The translations under genes and the position numbers were made by a program. A DNA stretch of 64,000 bases from Hypomesus transpacificus. Its lineage: Eukaryota > Chordata > Actinopteri > Osmeriformes > Osmeridae. The notes under the pieces were generated by a model. That model was not told the origin of the DNA. It made no database searches and worked only from the letters and a program-made list of their open reading frames with translations. Positions 1,047-62,831 of this stretch are shown here, piece by piece. Position 1 is the first letter of the stretch. Each line of letters starts with the position of its first letter. The stretch covers positions 906,171 to 970,170 of the forward strand of contig NC_061080.1 of assembly GCF_021917145.1 (NCBI RefSeq), in the 5' to 3' direction.

Positions 1047-29971
<28,925 letters not shown>

Positions 29972-34718: not shown

Positions 34719-37420
34719 TCACCTACACCTGGAGCGCGTGGCCTCCAAGGCTTTCTGGTGTCTCCTCTTGTTGAACCTCTTGACGTAGTTGTTGCTTCTC
34801 AGAAGCCCATCCCCAGGCTTCAGTTTACCCCCCAGTAGGGCCAGCAGGTCGTTGGGAAGGTGGCGTCTCCGGTGGTAGATCTGACCCATTAAAATATATC
34901 TGCTCCCTAAGGAATAACAGGAGGAAAGAAGGTTATTACAAAACATCCTCTGACAACAACTAGAAAGTGGTCACTGTTTAAAGTAGTTCTTTTTTTAAAT
35001 GGAACATACGTTCTGCCACCTACTCTGCCACCTATAGAGCAAGACATTATCGAGAAATTACATGGGGTCAGATGGCTGAGTGGTTAGGGAATCGGGATTT
35101 TAATCAGAAGGTTGCCGGTTCGATTCCTGGCCGTGCTAAATGACGTTGTGTCCTTGGGCGAGGTACTTCACCCTATTTGCCTCAGGGGGAATGTCCCTGT
35201 ACTTACTGTAAGTTGCTCTGGATAAGAGCGTCTGCTAAATGACTAAATGTAAATGTAATTACAACTGCTCGTCCTTAAAGGAGGACGATGAATACGATTG
35301 GCGGCCTCGGCCCGGCGCTCACCCAGTTTGAGGTCGGGGCAGGGCTTGCTGCACTTGTAGGTGTCCAGCACCAGGAGGCGCACCTTGAAGAAGAAGCTGT
35401 CGGGGGTCACGTAGAGACGACTCATCCTGTAGAAGCCGTCGCTGCTCACCATCAGCGTGATCATCCGGATCCCTTTGCGCACCACGTCGATGTCGTGGAC
35501 GATCCCGTTGACCGCTGTGGCGAAGGAGGAGGAGGAGGGGGGGGTGGGGGTCGGGAAGGGGGAGAAACGAAACAAAGTCGGCGTATGTTATATCCTGTGT
35601 TTTTAAAGATGCATGTTTTTTTTTCTCATGAAGGCGAAAAGCACAATATCACCTGCACGCACACACACGCACGCAGACGCTTACCAAATTCACTGAAGCA
35701 GAAGTAGTCTCTCTCCTCCTTCTCCTTCCGACACTCGCTCATGCAGACGGCGTCGTGCGTGTAGTCAGACTCTGGAGGCAGAAGAAGGGGCGGTGAGAAA
35801 GGGAGGAGAAGAGCCACAGGAGAGGGCCGCTGGTCCCGTGTGGAGTTGGGCCGGCCCATTCCAGTGTCACTGGGAAGGCCATGGTTGTCATTAGAAAAAA
35901 CCAAAGGCAGCAAATTCCTCAGGGTGGGGGACAATCCCACACAGAGAGACCCTTAATGACCGTATCACAGTAACTGATCTCACTTCGGCATATTTGGCAT
36001 TTCTCATCGTGTCCTCTTCCTCGGCAAGACCTTCCCACACAGGCCATCATTGAGAATCTGCATTTTGGGGGTGAAAAGCTGCAATTTGTGGCTAGAGAGG
36101 TCATGAGGTTAACTACCGCATATCTCTGAAGCGTTTAACTGCCGCGACACCCCCCATTTACTGGGTGAAATGCGGTCGTCGGACGTAGAGCATTCCTTAC
36201 CTCGTTTTAAGATGTCAAACTGATGGAGAAGACTGGAGGAATGGCGGTTGAAGAGTATGGACGGACGGCTGGCGTTCCTGTTGGCGCCGACTCCTGATTG
36301 GTAGATACTGGACTTCCCTGGGCGGTTCTCTTCAGGGTCCAGCTTCCTGTTTGGGGGGTCCCTTCGCGGGGCAGGGGCTGGGTACGGGTGGGCTTGAGGT
36401 TGACCCCGGGGTCTGGAGTTGGGGTGGGTTTCAGGGTCACTTTGCGGCGGCGGGTTGTTAGAACTAGGGTCCGCGTTGATCCTCTGAACGCGGTCGGTCG
36501 TGCCGGTGGTCAGAGTCATCTTGGGAAGCAGGCCCATCTCGCTGCGCACTTTCTCACTGTTGTGCTCGGTCAGGCGGTCACTCTTAGGGCCCTTCTTGCT
36601 CTTGTTGTGGGGCCCGGGGCGAGGGATGGGGACCAGGTCGGTGTGCTTGGGCCAGACACCCGGAGGTAAGGGGTGGAGGGTGTATTTGGGGTCCCCAGCC
36701 CTGCTGCTCTTCTCCAGGAGTTCGTTGATGGGCAGGGTGGGCTCTTTGCCCCCCAGCCTGCTCTGGTTCTGGGCTGTGTCCACCAAGCTGTCCTGGCCCT
36801 TCTCTGTCAGGGAGAAGACGGGTGAGACGGCCGGGACAGGCCATGTTACAACCCTGTTACACTCAGCTGAAACATGCTATTGTGTGGCTTCCTCTTCCAC
36901 ACACATCCAATGTCCTCTTCAGTACACTAAATCGTTTTTGTTTTTTTTGTGTATAATATATTACATTTATTGTGTTTTTCAACAATATTGAAACAAGAGG
37001 AAATGGTAAAGTGTTTATCTCAAATATCAACATGACTCCATTATTGTTTGTCAGGATTTATTTTCATTAGATATAAACTTTCAAGTGAAGTTTCAAAGAT
37101 GGGATCGCCCTACACTACAGATTGCAAATGATCCAACAATCATTTATTGTACTTGGTATTTCGGATCATGTACACTTTTAATGTTAATAACGTTTTGGTT
37201 TCGTAAGAGACAATGTCAGGAGTTTTGAAGTGTTACCTACCTTCTACGGATCTCTACGCAACTATATAATACGGAGTAACCTAACAAGAAGCATTTTTTC
37301 TAATCAAACTGTTGAGAGGTAAAATGCAAAAAATGAAGTGTGATACTCACCATTTACAACGTTCTCCTCCGCTTCAGAGAAAGAAAAGGCAAGTAACAGC
37401 AGCACTATAATCCCTGTCAT
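34719..37420 (-). CDS. c17orf58: C17orf58-like secreted protein with netrin-like (NTR) domain
   Basis: Exons on the - strand, in coding order: 37351-37420, 36201-36803, 35685-35771, 35323-35514, 34719-34906; total 1,140 nt, 379 aa, every junction in phase 1. Exon 1 encodes a signal peptide (MTGIIVLLLLAFSFSEAEEN). Exon 2 is a Pro/Arg-rich, probably disordered linker of about 200 residues. Exons 3-5 form the NTR domain with conserved pieces YTHDAVCMSECRKE, VNGIVHDIDVVRKGIRMI, CSKPC and LKPGDGLLR. NTR domains occur in TIMPs, netrins and PCOLCE; the molecular role of C17orf58 is not established. I chose the ATG at 37420 because a TATA-like sequence lies about 60 bp upstream; an in-frame ATG at 37519 precedes that sequence. 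A SINE sits antisense in the last intron. Confidence 0.92.
35067..35258 (+). repeat. tRNA-headed SINE copy 3 (+ strand)
   Basis: Full-length-looking copy in the last intron of the C17orf58 gene, antisense to it. Head GTCAGATGGCTGAGTGGTTA, B box GGTTCGATTCC (canonical), tail GTAAGTTGCTCTGGATAAGA. Confidence 0.88.
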
Positions 37421-37520: not shown

Positions 37521-38127
37521 CTGACCCAGAGGTAAACACGGTGGGTGACATCAGAGAATCTTCATTCATGAATACCAAAGACGCTCTGCATCCGTCTCCG
37601 ATTATGTTTGTATTTCTAATGTAGGCAAGCTAAATTATAATTGCGATTGTTTCATATGACTATCATATGAGTTTCTTCTCCGATTATTTAGGGTTAGTTC
37701 CAGATATTCTCAAGGTCCATCAAAAAGAGTGAAAATAAAAAATACTTATAAGAATAATGCAGGAATCCAACTTTATTCTGCTTGTAACTTCTACCTTACT
37801 CTCAAAAGTGCTGAATGACTGCCCCCTGCTGGGAGACTTGTGAAATAACTACTGCAGTAGTGAGATAACCTTTTACGATCAGCTGCAAAAATCCTACCTA
37901 TGGTCAATGGACTGCAGCTGTAAAGGCGTTTTCCTTTAGTGTATAAAATAACGTACAACGCAGACGACAAGTACGTGCTATCTATAGTTTATTGCAACCA
38001 TTTTTGTAACATTGTCAGTCAGTTTCATAGTTACGAGCGAACATCCTTGATTCAGACTGGTTCCGAATTGTTTAATTTCTTTTTGATAACGACCGCAATG
38101 ACCTCTGGATAAAACGGAAACTAAATA
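37521..38127. other. intergenic between C17orf58 and the tRNA gene
   Basis: No gene seen. It holds the upstream region of the - strand C17orf58 gene and AT-rich sequence. A T-tract serving the tRNA gene lies at its right end (TTTT on the - strand at 38114-38111). Confidence 0.6.
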
Positions 38128-38200
38128 CGACCCAGATGGGACTCGAACCCACAATCCCCAGCTCCGGAGGCTGATGCCTTATCCATTAGGCCACTGGGTC
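38128..38200 (-). tRNA. trnR-CCG: tRNA-Arg (anticodon CCG)
   Basis: 73-nt cloverleaf on the - strand: acceptor arm GACCCAG pairing with CTGGGTC and discriminator G; D arm with A box TGGCCTAATGGATAAGG; anticodon loop CTCCGGA giving CCG (reads CGG codons); T arm with B box GGTTCGAGTCC. No intron. TTTT follows about 14 nt beyond the 3' end as a Pol III terminator. The sequence appears identical to a human tRNA-Arg-CCG as I remember it. Confidence 0.97.
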
Positions 38201-38449
38201 ATCACGTTGTCAATGTGCGTATATTTAGTTAATAAACTGTTAAGGGAATGTACATTTAAGAATTGAATTCATGTCGATAGCGTTGTAGTGTATTTTGTAT
38301 ATGTTGGCTGTTTCATTTGTACAATGTCAAAAAAACAGATACAAATATTTATCTGTTATTTACTTAAACATAATGGGATGTAGAGAATAATCTCGCGATA
38401 ACAGTAAGCGTTGCTAATGGCAACTGCTGCATGTTGGGGGTCTTTTTTC

Positions 38450-38979: not shown

Positions 38980-41900
38980 ATGTCAAGCGCTGCCAACGAC
39001 AATGGAGATCGTCTGCCCCAGTTCAAAAACAAGGGGAAAGATGCAAACGTAAGTTGTAAAAAAAATCTATACTGCCTTGAACCACAGCAGATATTGAGGA
39101 AATGCTGAAAATGCATTTGTTTCATCGTCTACATGAAGGAATTGCGACGCAGGAGGATCGAGGTCAACGTCGAGTTACGGAAAGCCAAGAAGGATGACCA
39201 GATTCTAAAGAGAAGGAATGTCAGTAGTTTTCCAGACGAACCCACTTCACCACTCCAAGAGAAAAATCAGAATGGACAGGTAACGATTTGAATCGTAGTT
39301 TGCTTCCCAGTAGCTTTCAAACATTATGTGCTCTATTAGGATCCCGTGGAAAACTTTGGATCAAGTGTCGTTACCGGAAGTGGGGATCATGTCATGGGTG
39401 TAGCGATCAAGCTAGCTACACCTACACTTGCAGAAACAAATTATGCATTAAATCGCTGTCATGCTTTATTCCTGTGTTCGCAGACTTTGACGAGTGGGAT
39501 GCTTGGCAGGTCGTGACATTGGCATGGTAGTCGCCTCTCTAATCCAATTGTTTTATTTCCGTAGCCTGTCCAGCATTGGACAGTGGAGGAGATAGTGAGC
39601 GGCGTAAATAGCCAGAATCTGGACACTCAGTTGCAAGCCACACAAGCAGCCAGGTAAGCCGTTAGTCATCTAAGCCCTTCTACCAAGATTATCAAATCTA
39701 TCTGTATGGGTGAGCTCTCAAGTTCTGAGGTTGTCTCTACGTAAATTCATAACAATGCACTAATCCTTACGTCTTGAGTATCTACCCTACCTACAAGTCT
39801 ACCCTCCGGTGACATGCAATATTTGCCACCACCAGCTCTGTAACTGACCTGCGTTCCCACTGTCCACAGAAAGCTACTGTCCCGGGAGAGGCACCCCCCA
39901 ATCGACAGCATCATTGACGCTGGCCTCATCTCCAAGTTTGTCGTCTTCCTGAGCTTGGCCGAGTGCTCTCCCATCCAGTTTGAGGCGGCGTGGGCCCTGA
40001 CCAACATCGCCTCGGGCACCTCGGACCAGACGACCGCTGTGGTGGAGGGAGGGGCCATCCCTGCCTTCATCAGCCTGGTGACCTCACCTCACCCACACAT
40101 CAGCGAGCAGGCCATTTGGGCCCTGGGAAACATCGCAGGTGAGGAAAAGCGCGGTGGTAGCAATTTTTTTTTTCATTGGTGGGCCATATTTTTTGGTGAT
40201 GACGCCACAATAGGGGGATTTTCAAAACCAAGCGTTTGAGCTCATTTTTTTTAAAGGCGGAGAAGAATACCCGGGGTTTGGTTTACACCTATTGAAATTT
40301 CTAGCCACTGGGGGACCAAAGGCAGGCTAGGGGAACTTGTATCAATGTTAAATAACCTCCTAAAGTGAAGCTTATAAGGCGAACTGCATTTTAAATAATT
40401 TTAAACTTGGGACAATCAGAGCGGTGGAATCGCACATGCAGAGCAAAAAAGAGACTAGCCTATGTAAAGGCACGCCAGCAGCCTGCAATTGCTAGTTTCT
40501 TCTCCACCATTTCCACCACTAGCAACGATGTCAACGCTACAATTATCTACAGTTAACAGTTAATCAGTGTGTTTACTTGTAAAGATTACTTCATATTTCC
40601 ACTTTTGATTTGTATTTCCATCATAAGTTTGGTCTTAAATGTTATTTAGAAGTGGTATTAAAAAGTCTTATAGTGAACTTGTTTATATCTGTATACACCC
40701 TGATATAGTGATGGTTGTTGAAATTAGGTCTAATGACTTTCTCTCTTCAGGTGACGGCTCTAACTACAGAGACCAAGTGATCAAGCATGGAGCCATTGAT
40801 CCCCTCATGTCCCTGCTGTCGACCCCTGACCTGTCCGGCTTGTCAGTAAGTGGTCACACTCACTAAGGCACATTGCTGACCTTGACATAGCGTGCCATGG
40901 TTTCCCCCCTAAGTTTCCAGAGAGCCATTTTCTCATGACTCACCCTCTCTCTCACGACAGTCCAGTTACCTCAGGAACATCACATGGACCGTGTCCAACC
41001 TGTGCCGGAACAAGAACCCCGCTCCTCCGTTGGCTGCCATAGAGCAGCTCCTCCCCATGCTGGTGCGCCTCATCAACCACGACGACAAGGAGGTGCTGGC
41101 CGACACCTGCTGGGCCGTATCCTACCTGACAGACGGGCCCAACGAGAGGATCGAGGTGGTGGTGCAGGCCGGCCTGGTGCCCCGCTTGGTCCAGCTGCTT
41201 GCGTCCGAAGAGCTCAGTGTCGTGGTGAGTTGTCTCCGTCCGTGTTTTTTGTTGTTTTGTGAGGCGCTTTTTGTTTATTTTGTGATGCTGAGAGAACCTG
41301 TACGGCTCTGCGCTTCCTCATTCTTTTGACTTCACAAGATTCACTTTTTAGTACGTTCCTACTTTGTGCTCTTTTTGTATTATAATTTTTTATTATTATT
41401 CGATTTTTTTTAAACCCGCTTTTGTTGACGAGTCCCGCTCCTCGCTTATCTCCTCCCCAGACCCCGGCCCTGCGCTCGCTGGGCAACATCGTGACTGGCA
41501 CGGACCAACAGACCCAGAGCGTGCTCAACGCAGGCACACTGGCCGTGTTCCCCTTCCTGCTGCGCCACTGCAAGGCCAACATCCAGAAGGAGGCGGCCTG
41601 GACGCTGTCCAACATCACGGCCGGGAAGGACACCCAGATCCAGGAGGTGGTGAATTATGGCCTGGTGCCGGTCCTGGTGGAGGTCCTCTCTCAGGTAGGA
41701 GAAAAAATCACAGGCACATTCAAGCTCTCAAGACCCTCTCTAACCCGTTTCCCAATGCTGCCCAATTTGAACGAATTGCTGTTGGAAATATGAAATGCAT
41801 TGGTGGTAATATATGCTTGATAATGATAATAACCTGGGCCTTACTGGATATCATCCATATCCAAAGTGCTTGGGGGAGATGGGACTATCTAATGCAGATT

Positions 41901-46276: not shown

Positions 46277-47085
46277 ACCCTTGAAGGTCATGAAGAAGAT
46301 CAGGCAACATCATTTCAATGTCAACGTTTTTAATTTCCTCCCTTACCCTAACCTTTCTACTGTTATTATTAGTGGCAAGGAAAGTTCCTGAGGGGTGTTT
46401 AGGGGTGAGCACATTCAAACATATTTTCAGTTAATGAATTATCTCCCTTCTATAATATCATCTGAATTCTGAAGTCTCATTGTGTTCCAACCAATAACAG
46501 GCTTCGGTTGGGTTCTTGCCACTGTAATTACCTTCTGCTTGCACTATCCCTCCACCCTTGTGTGTCAGACTTCCTGTTTGATATCCGTGGAGGTGAAGTT
46601 CCAAGGCCAAAGCATCTCATTGGTTGATGAGCGTTCAATGGACTGAGGTAACCTTTCTCCATCCCACCCACAGTGCTCAGTAATTACAATGTGTACTTCG
46701 ATTCATTCTATAAAGGTACGAGTTCGGCAGCATGCAATCTTTCCCAATTACCATGTGATCCCTGGACCCTGAGTCATAACAGCCTTTTTTCCCACCACTC
46801 TGTGGATGTCAAAGTTGTTATTAGCCATTAGTGCTGCAGTGACTTCATTTGACATGGTAAATATATCTGCAGACAAAGAAGCTGAAAGCAAGGAAATACT
46901 TGCACATTTTAATCTACCAGCATTCAATTTTCATTCCAGTTTAGTCCATGTGAGTAAATGCAAAGATGCTAATAGTCATAGGTGATTTGTTTTTGTGACC
47001 TTTATGTTAAAACCAACACAAAGGAATAGCTTGGCAACATGTTTGATCTAATCTATCACTAAAATAAATTAAAGCAACCTCAGCC

Positions 47086-47814
47086 TCAGTAGCAGATGAA
47101 GCTGAGTCTCTCCTGGCAGTCGTGGGCCTCCCAGTGTCCCGCCGTCCCCACCGCCCCACAGCGGAGGTTTCTAGCTGGGCACTGGTGCCCTCCACCAGGG
47201 GGCCAGGCCTGATAGTCCAGAGGGTCCCCGTTCACCCACAGCCAGCGGTCCCCCAGGAAGCGCAGGCCCGTCCACACCAGCGCCGTCTGGGCCTGCTCCT
47301 GGATCTCCCTGTGGGCCAGAAGCATCTCCGTCTCTGACAGCAGGCTGGTCAGGTCAGTGTACTGCTCCCTGCAGTACTCCAGAGCCTCTTCCCATGTCTT
47401 GGGCTCTGTCACCACAAACAGACTCAAGCAAAAGAAGTATCCAGGATAATTTAAAGTATTATACCATCCACTGTCGCCAAGTGAAACAAAATTTTGCGAT
47501 GGTTCGTTGGTTGGGTTACCAAGCGAAAAGTTAAGGTATGTTGCAGATCCGCCATCTGACCATTTCCAGCCTGTGAAATCGTTGGGTTCTCTGTAAAGAC
47601 CAATCCAGTGAAACTTCAATGGAAAGCTTCCACCTGCTATATCTTTAAGTTTCAAGTCATCCTCTGGTCCACTGACAGGAGCTAGTTCAGTATAATGTTG
47701 TCTGCAATATCTTTGAGCATCTGTCCAGGTCTTCTCCTCACGTTTATAAACATATTTACCAAACACTCTTGATACAGTCACGACGAGGAGAACCTGGATG
47801 AAAATCTTCTCCAT
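47086..47814 (-). CDS. secreted two-domain C-type-lectin-like protein, gene 1 of 3 (intronless)
   Basis: Single-exon ORF, 242 aa, ATG in good context (GCCATGG). Signal peptide MEKIFIQVLLVVTVSRVFG, then two C-type-lectin-like domains (CTLD). CTLD1 (about 20-135) keeps KTWTDAQRYCR and WIGLYREPN but has NPTNEP at the sugar-contact loop and lacks the second disulfide pair. CTLD2 (about 136-242) has EALEYCREQYTDLTSL, WLWVNGDP and the full Cys set, ending SFICY, but lacks an EPN/QPD motif and a WND motif. A Ca2+-dependent sugar site is therefore doubtful. The CTLD1 half clearly differs from genes 2 and 3; the CTLD2 half is nearly identical to them. Not assignable to a named gene. Confidence 0.88.
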   Translation of the reverse strand: MEKIFIQVLLVVTVSRVFGKYVYKREEKTWTDAQRYCRQHYTELAPVSGPEDDLKLKDIAGGSFPLKFHWIGLYREPNDFTGWKWSDGGSATYLNFSLGNPTNEPSQNFVSLGDSGWYNTLNYPGYFFCLSLFVVTEPKTWEEALEYCREQYTDLTSLLSETEMLLAHREIQEQAQTALVWTGLRFLGDRWLWVNGDPLDYQAWPPGGGHQCPARNLRCGAVGTAGHWEAHDCQERLSFICY

Positions 47815-48420
47815 GGCGATGCTGTGTTCTGATACTGTATAAAAAGTTATTTAAACCTCTACCCTTGAAACAGATGGGTTCAGATCTAATAATTGTTGAG
47901 ATGTGAAGAAGTGTGAGAATCGTTGGGCTCAGTGTTGCTCCTTGTGTTGCTGCTCTGAGTGACGGTTGGTCTGGTGTACCTGACTAGTAAAGACTCCCAG
48001 GAACCAATAGCAACGTCTGTTCAGCTCACCTGTCTGTGAATAGAAACTATCTTTGCATACTCTTCAAATGAGATCCAGCCAATGTAACTCGCAAAATACA
48101 GACCTATCTCTCAAACAAATATTGGATCTGAGCTTAATTTATTCAGGGAGGGTTCCTTAAAGACCAGTATCAAGTTACCAGTATTTTGTCAATTTGTGTT
48201 TCTGTCTGTAACTATGTTTGTATGTATGCGGCTGCCTGTCTTGGCCAGGTCTCCCTTGAAAAAGAGATTCTTAAGCTCAATGGGTCTCTCCTGGTTAAAT
48301 AAAAGTTATCATTACTAATGGAGCCTTGTTGACATAATTAGCAAGGACATAGAGACGGGTGACAGTTTAAAGGAACAACAACATGTCTCAATGACAGGTT
48401 GGTGTCACACTGAAAAATCC
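47815..48420 (-). promoter_or_regulatory. shared upstream region of lectin gene 1
   Basis: About 190 bp upstream of the ATG is GACGTTGCTATTGGTTCC on the - strand: a CCAAT box overlapping an X-box-like GTTGCTA. The same block precedes gene 2 at about 50528-50542. Homology with gene 2's upstream DNA extends to about 48410 (TTAAAGGAACAACAACAT in both). Confidence 0.6.
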
Positions 48421-49652
48421 AGCAGACGCCCTCATTGTAGGGGTCAAAGCATTCAGGCCTGTACCCTTCTCTTGGTGTACACCACACATGGTGTCACCCA
48501 CATGTCCAGAATATGGTGAAGGGTGTGTCGTCAGGGTCACCTCACTTTTGTCCACATCTCTGTAGACCAAGGCCGGTGGTTTTATCGCGCCGCTGAACTT
48601 TCAAATGTGGATTTTCCTTTGTGACGAGGGCTTCCTATCCTGCAACCCTTCCATAATATCCCTGTCTATGTAGGTAACAAACCTTTCTCACTGACACACT
48701 CCTGAATTGACATTCCCAAGCACCTTAGGAAGACGTGCTTGTCTGTGTTTCCTTACACATTGTACTAACGTGCTAGTAGCCACGTTTAATAATGTATGCA
48801 ATACCACACAATTTCCAAATGTATTTAACTATGTCTTTAACATAGATCTAAATGAAGTAGTGTCACTTTATTGAAACACCAGCCAGTCGAGCTGCCTTTA
48901 GGACTGAAGCTCCTGCAATCTGTGCTCCATCAATTAACCGTCTTTTTCCAAAGTCCATATCTTCTTCTCTGACCATCTTGATCCTAAGCAAGGTCAATGG
49001 GCCCCACTCAGCATTTAGACACATACTCAGGATGTCAATCATATCATGCAGTACATTTACATTTAGTCATTTAGCAGACGCTCTTATCCAGAGCGACTTA
49101 CAGTAAGTACAGGGGCATTCCCCCCGAGGCAAGTAGGGTGAAGGAAACACAACGTCATTTGGCTTGGCGGGGAATCAATCCGGCAACCTTCTGATTACTA
49201 GTCCGACTCCTTCACCACTCAGACATCTGACTCCGCAGTACACCTGTCTGGAAGTATTTTCTCTGCTCATTTATTCAGTTTGTACCTTTAATTTGTCAGA
49301 CATACACACATCATATGATAGAATACAATAAACACAAAATAACCTGCATATACAATTGTAACACAACATAAGAAAGAGGTGTAGAGGTAAAGTAGGTCAA
49401 CATAAACTCTGATTACAAACAGAACCACTACTCAAATAATTCTTGGGACAAAGTATTGTAGGAAAATCCCAGTGAGGTATAAGAAGTATAGTATTTTTAC
49501 TGTCTGTTATGGAATTGACCCCAAAAATATGGAAACTTGTATCATCTAAAATTGTCCTTAGACACTCCTAACAATAAGGTTAGTAGAACATCTATACAAG
49601 TATTTTCATGCAGATTTTAATCTAGCTCTGCTTATATATTTATCAAGATCAT
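48421..49652. other. intergenic between lectin genes 1 and 2
   Basis: Contains SINE copy 4 (49053-49232) and, from about 49290, DNA homologous to the downstream flank of lectin gene 3. No gene otherwise. Confidence 0.65.
49053..49232 (-). repeat. tRNA-headed SINE copy 4 (- strand)
   Basis: Same family, between lectin genes 1 and 2. The middle CCTTGGGCAAGGCACTT segment is deleted compared with the other copies. It lies just beyond the downstream end of lectin gene 2. Confidence 0.82.
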
Positions 49653-50545
49653 TCAGTAGCAAATGAAGCTGAGTTTCTCCTGGCAGTCATGGGCCTCCCA
49701 GGGTCCCGCCTTCCCCACCGCCCCACAGCGGAGGTTTCTAGCTGGGCACTGGTGCCCTCCACCAGGGGGCCAGGCCTGGTAGTCCACAGGGTCCCCGTTC
49801 ACCCACAGCCAGCGGTCCCCCAGGAAGCGCAGGCCCGTCCACACCAGCGCCGTCTGGGCCTGCTCCTGGATCTCCCTGTGGGCCAGAAGCATCTCCGTCT
49901 CTGACAGCAGGCTGGTCAGGTCAGTGTACTGCTCCCTGCAGTACTCCAGAGCCTCTTCCCACGTCTTGGGCTCTCTCACCACAAACAGACTCAAGCAGTA
50001 GAAAGTTGCTGGAACGTCATAATAATCATACCATCCATGCCAACTCGTGCAACCAAAAAATTCCTCCGGTTCATTGGTTGGTTGGCCAGACTTAAAGTTT
50101 AGGTATGTTGCATATCCACCACCTGACCACTTCCAGCCTGTTTCATTGTTGGGTTCTCTGTAAAGTCCAATCCAGCTGAACATATTGGTTGCCTGTCTGA
50201 GTTTCAAGTCATCCTCTGGTCCACTGACAGAAGCTAGTTCAGTATAATATTGTCTGCAATATTGTTGAGCATCTGTCCAAGTCTTCTCCTCATCTACAAA
50301 AGCATATTTACCAAACGCTCTTCCTACAGTCACGACAAGAAGTACCTGGATCATCTTCTCCATGGCGATGCCAAGTGCAGATTTGAATAGTTGGAAGTAT
50401 TTCTAACCTCTAACCTCGAAGCGGATGGGTTCAGATCAAATAATTGTTGAGATATAAAGTGTTGCTGCTTGTGTTGCTGCTCTGTGTGCCGGTTGGTCTG
50501 ATGTACCTGACTAGTATAGAGTCCCAGGAACCAATAGCAACGTTT
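49290..50545. repeat. duplicated block containing lectin gene 2
   Basis: Aligns by eye with 51755-52990: shared downstream flank (ATTGTAGGAAAATCCCAG; CTCTGCTTATATATTTATCA), the gene, and about 170 bp upstream. Gene 1 shares the gene and upstream part but not this downstream flank, so the 2/3 duplication is the younger. Confidence 0.75.
49653..50363 (-). CDS. secreted two-domain C-type-lectin-like protein, gene 2 of 3 (intronless)
   Basis: Single-exon ORF of 236 aa. Signal peptide MEKMIQVLLVVTVGRAFG; one residue shorter than gene 3 there. CTLD1 reads WIGLYREPNNETGWKWSGGG and GQPTNEP, and uniquely keeps a Cys in FFGC that genes 1 and 3 lack, though its usual partner Cys is missing. CTLD2 differs from genes 1 and 3 at a few positions (GKAGPWEAHDC, EKLSFIC). 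It shares flanking DNA with gene 3 on both sides: upstream to about 50540, downstream to about 49290. Function is inferred only from the fold: extracellular ligand binding. Confidence 0.88.
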   Translation of the reverse strand: MEKMIQVLLVVTVGRAFGKYAFVDEEKTWTDAQQYCRQYYTELASVSGPEDDLKLRQATNMFSWIGLYREPNNETGWKWSGGGYATYLNFKSGQPTNEPEEFFGCTSWHGWYDYYDVPATFYCLSLFVVREPKTWEEALEYCREQYTDLTSLLSETEMLLAHREIQEQAQTALVWTGLRFLGDRWLWVNGDPVDYQAWPPGGGHQCPARNLRCGAVGKAGPWEAHDCQEKLSFICY

Positions 50546-50820
50546 CTTCAGCTCACCTGTTTGCAAATGGAAACTATTTTTGCATGCTGTACAAACATAC
50601 ATCCAAATAATCAAATAAAGAAAACACAACCTTTTCTCCCAAACAAATGTTTAATCTGACCCTCATTTCTTAAGGGAGAGTCCTACAGAGACCAGCATCT
50701 CGTTACCATTGGAGCCTGGTTTACATGATCAGCAGGAATGTGGAGACGGGTGACAAATTAAAGGAACAACAACATAAAGTGTCTCAGTGAGAGGGTTAGT
50801 GTCACAGTGAGGGTGTGTCA
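50364..50820 (-). promoter_or_regulatory. shared upstream region of lectin gene 2
   Basis: Homologous to the region upstream of gene 1, including CTATTGGTTCC about 170 bp before the ATG and TTAAAGGAACAACAACAT near 50760. Confidence 0.6.
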
Positions 50821-50978
50821 CCCCACTCTATGTCCTACATTCTTCACTTCCTGCCCTTTATTTACCACTGGCTGTTTATCAATCCACGTTTTTTTCCGTT
50901 CTTGTGCTCTTGCGAACTCGTTTGACGTCATCTCTCATTGCCCAAGTACGGTTCCAATCCAAAGAACACAAGTCACAT

Positions 50979-51413
50979 ATGCTTTGTCTACTACCGCGCA
51001 CTTGTGCACTTCGAGCACTGACTTTCAGTGCTTAAGGCGCTTCACTCACAAAACCAGCAGAATTCAGTGCACTGAAAGTACCCGGATGGCGCACTGCAAA
51101 CGGTCCAAAAAAACTGTGTACAACGATGGACACTACTCGCCCTAAACGGGCGCCATCTTGGCTACGTGGCGGAAAAGGAGGAGCCCTTTCGGCAGCATTT
51201 TCCACTTGAGTGGAGAAGCGCGTTCATTTTGGCAGGTTATGTGGGTGTCGCGAGCAGATTTGCGTCCGTCACTTCCACCAAGTGTTTAACGTAAGTGTTC
51301 CATTTGAGACAGCACTTATCAGCGACGGAGTGAACTGAATATGTAAGTGCACTGTTTTGTAGTGCACTGTATTGCAGTGTACTTCGTAAAGTGCGCGGTA
51401 CTAGACACAGCCC
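50979..51413. mobile_element. candidate non-autonomous DNA transposon (MITE)
   Basis: Ends are near-perfect inverted repeats: TGTCTACTACCGCGCACTT on the left and, on the opposite strand at the right end, TGTCTAGTACCGCGCACTT. The 435-bp interior has no ORF of note and contains GCGCCATCTTGGC. I could not see a clear target-site duplication, so exact ends and superfamily are unknown. Confidence 0.5.
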
Positions 51414-51754
51414 AAGAACGCCAAAAATACCTGGAAATGTTCTTGATCCGCCCCTTTTATCGAGGATGCATCAGATGGTGACTTGACCAGCGAGAACGCT
51501 TCTGATTCCCCAGAAGTCATTGCAAGATGTCTAGCGAGGCGGACAAACCTCACAACTGTAATATTTTACTTTTCATATTTCAGAATTTAAAATGTAATGA
51601 GAAATAGGCAGTTCAGTCGCTGAAAATGTTCTTATTTTATTGATGAAACGGCTAATTTGTAAATTTGCTCCGACTTGTCGATAACCTAGCTAGCATCTCA
51701 GTGCAGTGCAGACACTAGTTAACATTAGGTACTGTAAGTTAGCAAGGGCTACAC

Positions 51755-52990
51755 AGACTTACACAAATCATACGAAAGAATACAATAGTACACAAAAGAA
51801 CCGAAATGAAAATAGTTCATAAAGCATGAGAAAGAGGTGTATATATAGAAGGTCAATACAATATATGAATAAAAGCAGAACCACTACTCTAATAGTTATT
51901 GGAATAAGGTATTGTAGGAAAATCCCAGCGTGTTGTAAAAAGTATAGTATATTTACCTTCTGTTATGGGCTTTGATATACTTTTTATGGAAAACTGTTCC
52001 CATCTGAAAATGTCCTTAGGAAATCTTAACATTAATTTTATTAAAGAATCTATACAAACATTGTATATGGATTTTAATCTAGCTCTGCTTATATATTTAT
52101 CAAGATCATTCAGTAGCAGATGAATCTGAGTCTCTCCTGGCAGTCGTGGGCCTCCCAGTGTCCCGCCGTCCCCACCGCCCCACAGCGGAGGTTTCTAGCT
52201 GGGCACTGGTGCCCTCCACCAGGGGGCCAGGCCTGGTAGTCCACAGGGTCCCCGTTCACCCACAGCCAGCGGTCCCCCAGGAAGCGCAGGCCCGTCCACA
52301 CCAGCGCCGTCTGGGCCTGCTCCTGGATCTCCCTGTGGGCCAGAAGCATCTCCGTCTCTGACAGCAGGCTGGTCAGGTCAGTGTACTGCTCCCTGCAGTA
52401 CTCCAGAGCCTCTTCCCACGTCTTGGGCTCTCTCACCACAAACAGACTCAAGCAGTAGAAAGTTGCTGGAACGTCATAATAATCATGCCATCCATACCAA
52501 CTCGTGCCGCCAAAAAATTCCTGCGGTCCATTGTTTGGTTGGCCATACTGAAAGTTTAAGTATGTTGCATATCCACCACCTGACCACTTCCAGTCTGTTT
52601 CATTGTTGGGTTCTCTGTAAAGACCAATCCAGCTGAACATATTGGTTGCCTGTCTGAGTTTCAAGTCATCCTCTGGTCCACTGACAGGAGCTAGTTCAGT
52701 ATAATTTTGTCTGCAATGTTGTTGAGCATCCGTCCAGGTCTTCTCCTCATCTACAAAAGCATATTTACCAAACGCTCTTCCTACAGTCACGACAAGAAGT
52801 ACCTGGATGAACATCTTCTCCATGGCAATGCCAAAGTTCAAACCTTTACCCTTGAAACAGATGGGTTCAGATCTAATGTTGAGATTTGAAGAAGTGTGAA
52901 AATCCTTGGGCTCAGTGTTGCTCCTTGTGTTGCTGCTCTATGTGCTGGTTGGTCTGATGTACCTGACTAATATAGAGTCCTAGGAACCTT
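51755..52990. repeat. duplicated block containing lectin gene 3
   Basis: Partner of 49290-50545 in the same orientation; see that entry for the shared landmarks. Confidence 0.75.
52110..52823 (-). CDS. secreted two-domain C-type-lectin-like protein, gene 3 of 3 (intronless)
   Basis: Single-exon ORF; the real start is the ATG at 52823 (MEKMFIQVLLVVTVGRAFG), since the six codons before it in frame begin with TTG, giving 237 aa. CTLD1 has WIGLYREPNNETDWKWSGGG and the loop GQPNNGP, the closest of the three to a canonical QPN-type sugar motif. The Cys of gene 2's FFGC is Gly here. CTLD2 is almost the same as gene 1's, ending RFICY in place of SFICY. The CCAAT-box block found upstream of genes 1 and 2 is decayed here. 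Confidence 0.88.
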   Translation of the reverse strand: MEKMFIQVLLVVTVGRAFGKYAFVDEEKTWTDAQQHCRQNYTELAPVSGPEDDLKLRQATNMFSWIGLYREPNNETDWKWSGGGYATYLNFQYGQPNNGPQEFFGGTSWYGWHDYYDVPATFYCLSLFVVREPKTWEEALEYCREQYTDLTSLLSETEMLLAHREIQEQAQTALVWTGLRFLGDRWLWVNGDPVDYQAWPPGGGHQCPARNLRCGAVGTAGHWEAHDCQERLRFICY

Positions 52991-58319: not shown

Positions 58320-60174
58320 CAATAACTTTTGGTTGCTTAGGCCCAAACCTCTCTTAGGTCAAAGAGACAGTGTGGTTTATCTGCAGAAATTATTACTTTA
58401 TGAAAATAACTATTACTAAATTATATCTATGCTTAAATTACTACATCATGGTTGGAGCTCTGCCATAGGCCCAGGCCCATGTCATACCAGACAGTCCCTG
58501 GTTAAAATATGTTTGCAGAAACCTCAGTATCATTATAGTTCCCCTTAGCTTTGTTTAACTTCATTTGACCAAACGTTTTGTCATACACAAGTTCCAACAT
58601 GCAAACTCCACAGTCTAAATGCATCTATAAGTAATACATCTATTATTGTTGCACTATCGATGGAAGTGATAACAAACTGTCATTCTGGCTAGTGACGATA
58701 GACTGTAACCACAAAATACTGTGCAAAAACGGTGTACTTCTGATCCCGGATCCTCTATTGTACTTTATACATGCACTCAATCTGTGAGTCGCTTTGGGTA
58801 AATGTCTGCTAGATTAATAAAATGTAAATATATACACACAGACGTCCTGTAAACACACATAGCGCCACACACACGCACGCACGCACGCACACAGTCGGGC
58901 GGCGGGCCAGGTCTTCTTAAGCAGTGCTGATGAGGATCATTAAGCTCGATCAAAGGAAGTGATTACAGCTTTTGTCTGAGAGAGAGAAAGAGAGACAGAG
59001 AGAGAACGACAGAGAGAGAACGACAGATGGAGAAAATGAGAGATACAGAGAGGAGAGGGAGATGGTTAATGGGTCATTAATATAGTTAGGTGTGCCAAGG
59101 CAACCAAAAAAACATTCAAAGTGTGAAGGAGGAGGCCCGTAAAAAGAAAACATGACTACACCACATGCAGATTAAGCATGTAGCGTGTACGTCGACACTC
59201 TCAGAGCATGTTCACCAGGATCCAGCTGTGCAACACCATTTACTGTAATCCATCAACACCGATGAGTAATTTCCGTTGTCAGCAGAATAAAACAGGACAT
59301 TCCTCCATTCAGGTTTTTCACACGACCACCCTCTTTCCCCCATCCCTCAACGACCAAGCCATCTCTTGAGCAGAGCGGATGAATTCAGCCTCGGCAAGGC
59401 CGCCAGACACGAGCTCTGTGCACATGCAAATGAATTCATTAGTTTGATCCAGCATGACCGTGATCCATTCATGGCCACTGTTAGTCAGTGATTACAGTTA
59501 AATTCAGGTGGAACACGTACAACCTTCCGAGCACTCCACCTCACTCATCCCCCAGGTAATACACACCATTGGACAGGCTTCATTAGTGGACGTGGAGTCG
59601 GGCGAGGCAGGTTGACACATATAGGGTGTATTAGCGGAGGACACCGCGTGTTCCCGTCGGCTCGTGCCTCATCATTAATCATGTCGAGAGGGATTGTGGG
59701 TAATTACCTTTGAAAAATATTCATTTGCAAGGTCACGGGGTGGTCTTTACGAGAAGGGGGAACAGCGGATGAGGAGGTTAGGATGTACAGAGTGCTCGAC
59801 ACTGAGGTCTTCTTTTTCGTGTGCGTGCGCTGATGGGGGAGGGGGTGACATAGGCTTCTGTCAGTATACAGTTTAAGGAATGGAAATGAGTGCATGAGGA
59901 CAAAGTGGTGACTGTGTGTATGTTTCTGAGAGGTACATTACATTTCCATGTATTCATTTAGCAGACGCTTTTATCCAAAGCGACTTCCCAAGAGAGAGCT
60001 GTACAAAGTGCATACGTCACTGATAATAACAACAAGATAGCCCCCAAAAACATTGCGAGTAGCCAAAACATGAAGCACATAATGTGAACAACCAAAATAA
60101 GTGCCAAAGGGAAGAAGAATAAGAGCAGGTGTGTGCCAGCCAGTGGCTCAGTGATGTAGGTGTGTGGGTGAGCT
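58320..60174. other. intergenic before the LINE, with fragments of SINE/LINE tail
   Basis: A decayed tail (GTCGCTTTGGGTAAATGTCT) at about 58788-58830 and a - strand one (TTTAGCAGACGCTTTTATCC) at about 59950-59990. Between them, 59180-59720 is repeat-poor and dense in AATTCATTAG and CATTAATCATG motifs, a possible enhancer. No gene seen. Confidence 0.5.
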
Positions 60175-62831
60175 ATGCTATGTTATATAAAGCTAGCTTC
60201 AACCTCAGCCTAAAATCTGTCAATACCTTTAAATCATTTGAGATAATTTGTATGAAACCACCAACTACTTTAAAAAGGACTAATTCTACTACTGTTGCCC
60301 CCCCTCCTTCGTTTTGTATAGTTACTCTATACCGGCCCCCTGGCCCATACTCCCTCTTCCTTGAGGAATTTGCTGATTTTAGTGCTGATCTTGTGACATA
60401 CACTGACAATATCTTAATTATGGGTGATTTTAACATTCATGTCGATGACCCAAAAGATCCTCTAAGTAAGGCCTTTACTGCTCTTATGGATTCCACAGGT
60501 CTCACTCAGGTGGTTTCTAAACCTACCCATCTTCACTCGCATACATTGGATTTAGTTCTCACGCGGGGAATCAAGATTAGTGATGTCATTGTTCATACCC
60601 ACAATCCTATATTATCAGACCACTGCCTGGTAACCTTTAAAATGGATCTCTGCCAGAGCCTTGGAGGCACCCAGAATATTTCTATTAGCCGCTGCTTAAC
60701 CCCAAATACAGCTCTGGAACTGGCTAGTATTCTACCCGCTGCACTAGAAGCACTTGATGTCCCGAATAAATCATTAAATGCTAAAACAAGGGATCTGAAT
60801 TTGGTTCTTCAGCAATCCCTAGATTCTGTTGCTCCACTCAAACCAAGGAAAAGAATAGACAAGAAACTGGCTCCATGGTATTCAGAGGAAACCCGCACTC
60901 TCAAGAGGTCCACTAGAAAATTAGAGCGTAAGTGGCGTACCACTAAATTGGAGGTTTTCCGCCTGGCCTGGAAGGACAGCCAAATAGAGTACAAGCAAGT
61001 CCTCATCAGGTCCAGATCAGAATATTTCTCTAAGTTGATTAGTAAGAACAAACACAACACTAAGTTCCTATTTGATACTGTTGCAAAACTCACTAAGAAA
61101 AGTACACTCTGTGTTAGTTCAGATCTCTCTCCCAATGATTTCTTAGATTTCTTTGACCAAAAAATCTATGCAATAAGGGACAAACTACAGACTTGTCCTG
61201 GAGGAGTGGCCATCAACACTGATTTTCCCTCTGTACCCAGCATTCTGCATGTTGAGACTCTCACTCACTTTAACCCTATTTCTATGGAAGCATTCATCAA
61301 GCTGATGGATTCCTCGAAACCCACTAGCTGCCTTCTCGATCCCCTCCCTGCCAAACTTTGTAGGGAACTTCTCCATATTATTGGACCGCCCATGCTTAGT
61401 ATTATTAATGAATCTCTTGTAACTGGACAAGTCCCTGACGATTTCAAACAAGCTATTATCAAGCCCCTTCTTAAAAAACCAAACCTGGATCCAGGTTGTC
61501 TTAGCAATTACAGGCCCATTTCAAATTTGCCATCTCTCTCCAAAATTTTGGAAAAAGCTGTGGCAAAACAGCTCACTGAGCACCTCTCCTCAAATCAGCT
61601 CTATGAACCTCTCCAGTCTGGATTTCGTCTTCACCACAGCACTGAAACTGCATTAGCCAAGGTAGTCAATGATCTATTATTAGCCTCTGACGCGGGCTTT
61701 AGCTCTGTCCTTGTTCTTCTAGACCTAAGTGCAGCTTTTGACACTGTAGATCATGAGATTCTCCTGGAACGTATGGAGAACTATGTTGGGATTTCTGGTA
61801 CTTCACTTCAGTGGTTCAGATCGTATCTATCTGATAGATCACAATATGTCCACTATGATGGTTGCTCATCCAGGAGCTCCATTGTAAAATACGGAGTACC
61901 ACAGGGTTCAGTTTTAGGCCCTCTGTTATTTTCACTCTATATGTTGCCTTTAGGAAACATAATTAGAAGTTTTGGGGTAGATTTTCACTGCTATGCAGAT
62001 GATACTCAGCTATACATGTCTATAAAGCCGGGAGAATTTCCACATGCTATGGAAACCTGTGTTTCCGGGTTGAAAACTTGGATGACTGCAAATTTCCTTC
62101 TTCTTAATTCGGATAAAACCGAGGTTCAAATTTTTGGTCCGAAAAAACACCGAAATAATTTATCCCATCTAACCTTAGACTTAGACGGCGTCAAAGTATC
62201 TCAAAGCCAGCTGGTAAAAAATCTGGGAGTCACAATGGACCCAGACCTTTCATTTGAGTACCATATTAAGCAAATCACCAGAACAGCATTTTTCCATCTA
62301 CGTAATATTGCCAAAATACGAAAATTCCTCTCAAAGGATGATGCTGAAAAACTAATACATGCTTTTGTTACGTCCCGATTGGACTACTGCAATGTGTTGT
62401 TCTCTGGCCTCCCAATTACCTACCTAAAAAACTTACAGCGGGTGCAAAATGCTGCTGCTAGACTATTGACTAAAACTAGAAAGTTTGATCATATAACATC
62501 GACTCTTATCTCTTTACACTGGCTCCCTATCCAAGCCAGAGCTGATTTCAAAGTTCTACTACTAACTTACAAATCTCTGCATGGATTGGCACCACTGTAC
62601 CTCTCCGGTCTCCTTGCACCCTATTGCCCCGCAAGGTCTCTAAGATCTCAAAATGCCGGCTATCTGGTAATACCCAAAGTTAAGAAAAAAACTGCTGGAG
62701 GTAGGGCGTTCTCATATAGAGCACCTCTTCTTTGGAACAAATTACCCATCTCAATTAAGGAAGCTGATACTGTCTCGACATTTAAAACTAGATTAAAAAC
62801 GTTCTTGTTTAGTCAATTCTATGATTGTTAA
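60129..62831 (+). CDS. L2-like ORF2: partial endonuclease plus reverse transcriptase
   Basis: A 900-codon ORF with no stop. The first ~15 codons, including the ATG at 60129, are probably flanking host sequence. The C-terminal part of an apurinic-type endonuclease follows: GDFNIHVDD (about residue 98) and SDHCLV (about 163); the N-terminal catalytic Glu region is missing. The reverse transcriptase spans about 440-720: [18 protein letters not shown], the first catalytic Asp in [25 protein letters not shown], and the active site YADDTQLY (about 621). The C-terminal domain ends FLFSQFYDC. Without a whole endonuclease it is unlikely to retrotranspose. Confidence 0.88.

Follow-up and report, generated by a model that had tools for sequence, protein, structure and literature searches.

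Divergence along three tandem lectin genes

How can the two halves of one uninterrupted coding sequence come to carry different histories? The question is raised by three tandem lectin genes (g1, g2 and g3) in a 64,000-nucleotide stretch of the Hypomesus transpacificus genome (the window; contig C21, 906171-970170, in an assembly of 437 Mb in 376 contigs). The genes occupy 47086-52823 on the minus strand, and each encodes two C-type lectin-like domains (CTLD1 and CTLD2). A preliminary description had placed three such genes here and proposed ongoing, GC-biased gene conversion confined to their 3′ halves. The genes are present as described, as intact single open reading frames (ORFs) of 242, 236 and 237 amino acids. 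The results given below argue that recurrent ectopic gene conversion has most probably held the CTLD2 copies of the trio near-identical, and that CTLD1 escaped it.

Codon alignments were divided at the last cysteine of CTLD1 (codon column 128 of 242), and synonymous and non-synonymous divergence (Ks and Ka) were calculated by the Nei-Gojobori method. In CTLD1, Ks/Ka was 0.367/0.256 for g1-g2, 0.370/0.282 for g1-g3 and 0.072/0.042 for g2-g3, and in CTLD2 the corresponding values were 0.054/0.019, 0.026/0.011 and 0.026/0.015. The three genes are approximately equidistant in CTLD2, whereas in CTLD1 g2 and g3 are far closer to each other. This agrees with the earlier account of a near-identical CTLD2 in g1 and g3, for which we count 3 amino-acid changes in 114 codons, 2 of them in the last ~105, and of a far more diverged CTLD1 in g1, for which we find Ks ~0.37 from g2 and g3, against 0.072 between those two. 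The synonymous step expected at the domain border was found as well: Ks falls from 0.37 to 0.026-0.054, with P ≤ 1e-4 by codon permutation in both g1 pairs. At the CTLD1 rate, ~22 synonymous differences would be expected in CTLD2; 4 were observed for g1-g2 and 2 for g1-g3 (Poisson 2.4e-6 and 5e-8). The longest identical runs extended over 174 comparable sites in g1-g2, 174 in g1-g3 and 318 in g2-g3 (permutation p 2e-4 each).

Changes were also sorted by the gene that carries them. Those found only in g1 occupied 77 of 366 sites in CTLD1 and 4 of 342 in CTLD2 (Fisher 2e-19), while those found only in g2 or only in g3 numbered 12/366 and 6/342 (p 0.24). The proportions of these classes differ between the halves (Fisher 0.002 for all sites, 0.048 for third positions). 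If CTLD2 were merely slow, all three branches would shrink together; only that of g1 does so significantly, and constraint alone is therefore insufficient. The step is independent of simple rate scaling, and the two halves coalesce separately.

The idea of a half-gene pattern holds for the low-divergence block, which coincides with CTLD2, but not for the remainder, where divergence is uneven and is greatest in the final third of CTLD1. For g1 against g2 or g3, Ks was ~0.18 in codons 0-56, 0.32-0.38 in codons 56-96 and 0.89-1.08 in codons 96-128, the latter two bins holding ~20 synonymous sites each, and 0.026 beyond. A Fisher test on rounded counts separates the first from the last CTLD1 bin (0.005).

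Boundaries of the low-divergence block

Multinomial segmentation of 974 gap-free alignment columns, with offsets counted from the ATG, reached the minimum of the Bayesian information criterion (BIC) at four segments, with cuts at -194/-193, 287/288 and 383/384. The last cut lies one base before the border codon of CTLD2, which begins at offset 384. Upstream of the coding region, g1 resembles g2 in the farther part and both other genes close in. On the 3′ side, likeness of g1 to g2 and g3 ends at the g1 stop codon: its flank gave no BLAST match to theirs at 1e-3, and Smith-Waterman scores were not above those of shuffled sequences. Because this flank is unrelated, a simple crossing-over that also transferred the 3′ end does not fit.

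Recurrence among related lectin clusters

A genome search with the g3 protein returned 42 matches at E ≤ 1e-5, and 30 loci were fetched. Besides the trio, the full single-ORF relatives are c19a (contig C19; 253 amino acids, two Lectin_C stretches) and a gene on C23 (227 amino acids), of which only the second domain reaches Pfam. In the other clusters, stops in all three frames separate the CTLDs at 8 of 8 gaps examined, so the domains there are separate exons. The terminal exon on C93 is preceded by the acceptor-like CCCCTCTAG; when aligned at the EN/P-KTW motif, the left edge of the trio's block would fall within a few bases of the start of this exon. A tree of 53 domain stretches (3 of 56, shorter than 220 bases, were omitted) separated a terminal type, found on C5, C7, C49, C2, C93, C23, C19 and C21, from other CTLDs with support of 97/97, several branches being long. 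One C2 stretch (2846223) that scored narrowly as terminal type (45.8 vs 43.9) groups with other CTLDs in the tree.

The pattern recurs in the intron-containing C93 cluster. Among its genes A, B and D, Ks was 0.072-0.091 in the terminal CTLD and 0.69-0.79 in the preceding one (Fisher 5e-8 to 5e-6). Ratios of preceding to terminal Ks were compared in 23 pairs, which are not independent. They were 3.4-15.2 in the six pairs from the trio (3) and C93 (3), 1.3 in the C5/C7 pair, and 0.18-2.32, with no consistent step, in 16 pairs from four comparisons with an ordinary last domain (C13, C119/C36, C207 and another C21 cluster). The set leaves out C19, where the first domain is mostly gapped (ratio ~0.5), C93 copy C, which has no partner exon in view, and the single copies on C2, C49 and C23. 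Copy C is a truncated fragment. At C93:205679-209005 (about 1501-1830) lies an isolated GC-rich terminal CTLD exon that is 98% identical to that of gene A over 327 bp, has different flanks, and lacks both the end bearing the last cysteine and the splice acceptor.

On C19, c19a has a tandem copy, c19b (C19:6548500-6558400, 5046-5687, minus strand), which contains an in-frame stop and in which the middle of CTLD1 is deleted and replaced. Its 5′ part is 99% identical to c19a and its 3′ flank is unrelated (136/285); the middle matches at 63/94 positions with 130 gap columns, and CTLD2 at 329/346. c19b is a mosaic and probably a dead copy. A rule that placed the end of every island at the stop codon was considered and rejected: it fits g1 and, roughly, c19a/c19b, but similarity among C93 genes A, B and D enters the 3′ flank.

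GC content of the terminal domain

The low-divergence half also has the higher GC content at third codon positions (GC3), as the preliminary description had anticipated: 0.813, 0.813 and 0.822 in CTLD2 of g1, g2 and g3, against 0.328, 0.327 and 0.360 in CTLD1. The neighbouring coding sequence is mostly GC-rich. GC3 was 0.94-1.0 in four BPTF pieces, 0.73 in the whole BPTF long exon, 0.87 and 0.91 in two importin-alpha pieces, and 0.35 in a nearby long interspersed nuclear element (LINE) ORF. With neighbouring exon pieces at 0.87-1.0, a value of 0.81 for CTLD2 is unexceptional at this place.

The BPTF and importin-alpha pieces with GC3 of 0.87-1.0 lie at window positions 1100-26600 and 40991-41793; noncoding DNA around the lectin genes has ~42% GC.

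Genome-wide, with stretches classed by score, mean GC3 was 0.50 for ordinary-type CTLDs (n=38, 0.42-0.60) and 0.69 for terminal-type CTLDs (n=12, 0.43-0.80; trio left out). At 7 of 8 loci, some of them single-copy, the terminal CTLD had a higher GC content than the partner domain, and the idea that a GC step is peculiar to the trio was dropped. The difference was 0.02 on C23, a single-copy, single-ORF relative with almost no step (58/105 vs 59/103), 0.05 on C49, ~0.1 on C5 and C7, and 0.15 on C2; the largest three were those of the tandem clusters on C19 (0.23), C93 (~0.35) and C21 (0.47). In C93, GC3 was 0.78-0.80 in the terminal CTLD and 0.42-0.46 in the preceding one. None of the 56 domain stretches is more AT-rich than CTLD1 of the trio (0.28-0.34 in that survey), so part of the trio's step is a fall in CTLD1. 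The GC-richness of the terminal domain predates the trio, yet reaches its highest values among tandem, homogenised copies.

If conversion were GC-biased, homogenisation of CTLD2 would also raise its GC content, and one cause would account for both steps. GC3 and identity do shift together at the domain border, where GC3 goes from 0.33-0.36 to 0.81-0.82, and the three largest GC3 steps fall in tandem clusters. Contrasts within the tree go in the expected direction, C93 (0.77-0.79) exceeding its sister C2 (0.69) and C19 with C21 (0.72-0.82) exceeding C23 (0.56). At the two sites where g1 and g3 agree with each other but differ from g2 and the outgroup, the change was in each case towards GC. However, there are only two such contrasts, and C19, C21 and C93 are related. 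Changes within CTLD2 show no excess from AT to GC: polarised with c19a, 3 were to GC, 3 to AT and 1 neutral, with 3 unpolarisable (a hand count of small numbers), and polarised by majority rule, 7 were to AT and 1 to GC. A homogenised stretch in the g2-g3 3′ untranslated region is AT-rich, and the 5′ flank has a GC content of 0.43-0.44. The GC-rich neighbouring exons, the AT-rich CTLD1 of the trio and the GC-richer terminal domains of single-copy loci weigh on the same side. A GC bias of conversion is thus unproven and somewhat unlikely. Conversion mainly in the 3′ half is upheld by the synonymous step, the failure of a rate difference to explain it and the recurrence in C93; the proposed GC bias is not shown, with polarised changes at 3 to 3. 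The majority-rule count had been considered as a refutation of GC bias and was set aside, since the C19 outgroup gives 3 to 3, which is an absence of support and not a refutation.

Probable recurrent conversion and its alternatives

Several observations weigh against recurrent conversion as the explanation of the trio. The evidence comes from three genes in one genome, and the g2-g3 step is weak (codon permutation P 0.08). Finer segmentations, not preferred by the BIC, contain more switches of nearest relative, with g1 pairing with g3 at -144..-41 and 670-728 in those segmentations only. The strongly diverged final third of CTLD1 might instead derive from a different lectin, by import of a segment. 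In C93, similarity among A, B and D continues into the 3′ flank, and crossing-over is possible there. The C19 pair is a weak replicate: its 5′ flank (401/406) and N-terminal part (190/191) are also nearly identical, and the comparable first-domain stretch has a Ks of 0.038, below the 0.075 of CTLD2.

A one-off replacement, by a single conversion or an unequal crossing-over, is another reading: one copying of CTLD2 into g1, together with a recent split of g2 and g3, would yield most of the pattern. Yet near the 3′ end there are two sites at which g1 and g3, but not g2, carry what seems to be the derived state (the outgroup is weak), the unrelated 3′ flank of g1 speaks against a plain crossing-over, and the pattern recurs in C93. 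We regard a single replacement as somewhat unlikely. We infer that conversion has acted rather than repeated crossing-over, and the low Ks makes it plausible that conversion is ongoing.

Could the step arise with no conversion at all, from strong synonymous and amino-acid constraint on CTLD2 and relaxed or positive selection on CTLD1? CTLD2 is indeed the more conserved domain between loci (56-57% amino-acid identity to c19a, vs 29-37% for CTLD1), Ka/Ks reaches 0.70-0.76 in CTLD1 of the g1 pairs, and codons 96-128 of g2-g3 carry 8 non-synonymous differences and 1 synonymous. Rate scaling should nevertheless preserve the proportions of changes in g1 and in g2/g3, which shift between the halves (Fisher 0.002), and changes particular to g2 or g3 do not drop significantly (p 0.24). 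This explanation is very unlikely. An assembly artefact, in which CTLD2 copies were collapsed or over-polished into one sequence, might be suspected from the 318 identical comparable sites of g2-g3, but is very unlikely given 10 variable sites inside CTLD2 across the three copies and their distinct flanks on a 10.7-Mb contig.

A probable mechanism and related systems

Recurrent conversion and constraint probably act together. Stronger constraint on CTLD2 would keep the paralogues similar enough to pair and convert, while CTLD1, which changes fast and mostly in its last third, would fall below the similarity needed for pairing and drift freely. In the lectin fold this last third is expected to hold the ligand loops, and a ligand function is possible. 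The edges of the island would then be edges of constraint, namely the domain junction on the left and, in g1, the end of the ORF on the right, because conserved CTLD2 pairs and fast CTLD1 does not. The outcome would be a common terminal domain joined to diverging first domains.

The closest precedent is TLR1/TLR6 of mammals, where conversion is described as holding back the divergence of one functional region and leaving others to diversify (PMC2077338). Both cases involve tandem paralogues of an innate-immunity type, with a C-terminal part homogenised at synonymous sites too, an N-terminal part that diverges, and a right edge close to where the coding region stops. They differ in that the TLR study covered nine species, with independent events shown by trees, where we have one genome and the recurrence in at least one other cluster of it, C93; and the homogenised region carries the TIR domain in TLR1/TLR6, whereas in the trio it is CTLD2 of a protein predicted to be secreted. 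Domain-restricted conversion is a known kind of process, of which the lectin trio would be a new instance; no paper on it in fish lectins was among the matches listed in a literature search.

In architecture, the trio resembles the soluble dual-CTLD group F1 of Fugu and zebrafish, whose members, according to that study, were first taken for mannose-receptor fragments and have at least one CTLD with Ca/carbohydrate-binding residues (PMC514892). Both have two CTLDs and no transmembrane segment was seen, and the best solved relatives of the trio are PLA2R, LY75 and mannose receptors. The likeness is one of architecture; the trio genes differ in being single ORFs without introns. The term "gene conversion" is absent from the main text of that paper. 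Raised GC in repeatedly converted DNA is shared with X-chromosome palindromes, for which GC bias was reportedly tested with orthologous arms in three primates (PMC8981503); in the trio the association is correlative only.

A broader and speculative idea, which we think rather unlikely, is that the GC-rich terminal CTLD lineage is a portable conversion hotspot, homogenised and driven GC-rich by biased conversion at the ends of tandem lectin genes (C21, C93, perhaps C19), with or without introns, while partner domains diversify. If so, recombination would maintain a scheme of constant and variable domains, and a GC step would mark domains under conversion. The trio shows compactly how the halves of a single-ORF gene can differ in history. 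C93 is a natural replicate, which raises the value of the case somewhat, and the other lectin clusters are internal controls in the same genome; together they can be used to test how conversion, constraint and GC content depend on one another, as cause or as consequence. Gene trees and dates drawn from whole-length alignments of such lectins call for caution, since two histories are mixed in them.

Features of the locus

Coordinates of the genes, blocks and flanks are collected in Table 1. The g3 ORF as called by the ORF tool begins upstream, at a TTG.

Table 1. Features of the lectin trio (window positions).
Feature	Position	Strand	Basis or description
g1, dual-CTLD, single ORF, 242 amino acids	47086..47814	-	ORF; Pfam Lectin_C 6.6e-23, two stretches
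g2, dual-CTLD, single ORF, 236 amino acids	49653..50363	-	ORF; Pfam Lectin_C 2.5e-23, two stretches
g3, dual-CTLD, single ORF, 237 amino acids	52110..52823	-	ORF; Pfam Lectin_C 2.9e-22, two stretches
g1 CTLD2, homogenised GC-rich block, GC3 0.813	47086..47430	-	Ks 0.054/0.026 to g2/g3
g2 CTLD2, homogenised GC-rich block, GC3 0.813	49653..49997	-	Ks and GC3 by half
g3 CTLD2, homogenised GC-rich block, GC3 0.822	52110..52454	-	Ks and GC3 by half
g1, last third of CTLD1 (codons 96-127), divergence peak vs g2/g3, adjoining the homogenised block	47431..47526	-	Ks 0.89-1.08, Ka 0.64-0.77; own segment in the BIC-best segmentation, offsets 288-383
g1 proximal 5′ flank, similar among all three genes	47815..48007	-	segment from -193, few g1-only changes; g1-g3 87% over 165 bp
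g1 3′ flank, no match found in the 3′ flanks of g2/g3	46386..47085	-	BLAST; Smith-Waterman
g2 3′ flank, 77% identity to that of g3 over ~356 bp	49297..49652	-	
g3 3′ flank, 77% identity to that of g2 over ~356 bp	51754..52109	-	

The products of g1-g3 are predicted from their sequences to be secreted lectins: by eye, each has a putative signal peptide and no membrane segment was seen. The nearest solved structures to CTLD2 are PLA2R (4e-38), a chicken-type yolk-sac IgY receptor entry, LY75 and mannose receptors; CTLD1 gave weaker matches to the same receptor group (best 4.6e-15). EPN/QPD and WND are the Ca/carbohydrate-binding motifs of CTLDs. Judged by eye, neither is intact in g1-g3, while CTLD1 of the C19 relative carries QPN and WYD. 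An NCBIfam scan returned no meaningful family, and one scan of viral contigs gave no match to g3.

The upstream neighbours include exon pieces of BPTF (PDB match to BPTF at 2e-38; DDT and PHD domains) and of importin alpha (PDB importin alpha-1/-2, near 1e-51). A tRNA-Arg (CCG) gene lies at window positions 38127-38201 on the minus strand, and an intact-looking LINE ORF of 900 amino acids, with endonuclease and reverse transcriptase domains, at 60129-62831 on the plus strand. Four UnaL2-type 3′ ends were found in the window (2111-2164, 21328-21381, 35195-35248 and 49061-49114). The one at 49061 sits between g1 and g2 in a repeat resembling a short interspersed nuclear element, of which the window holds three further copies at 83-86%.

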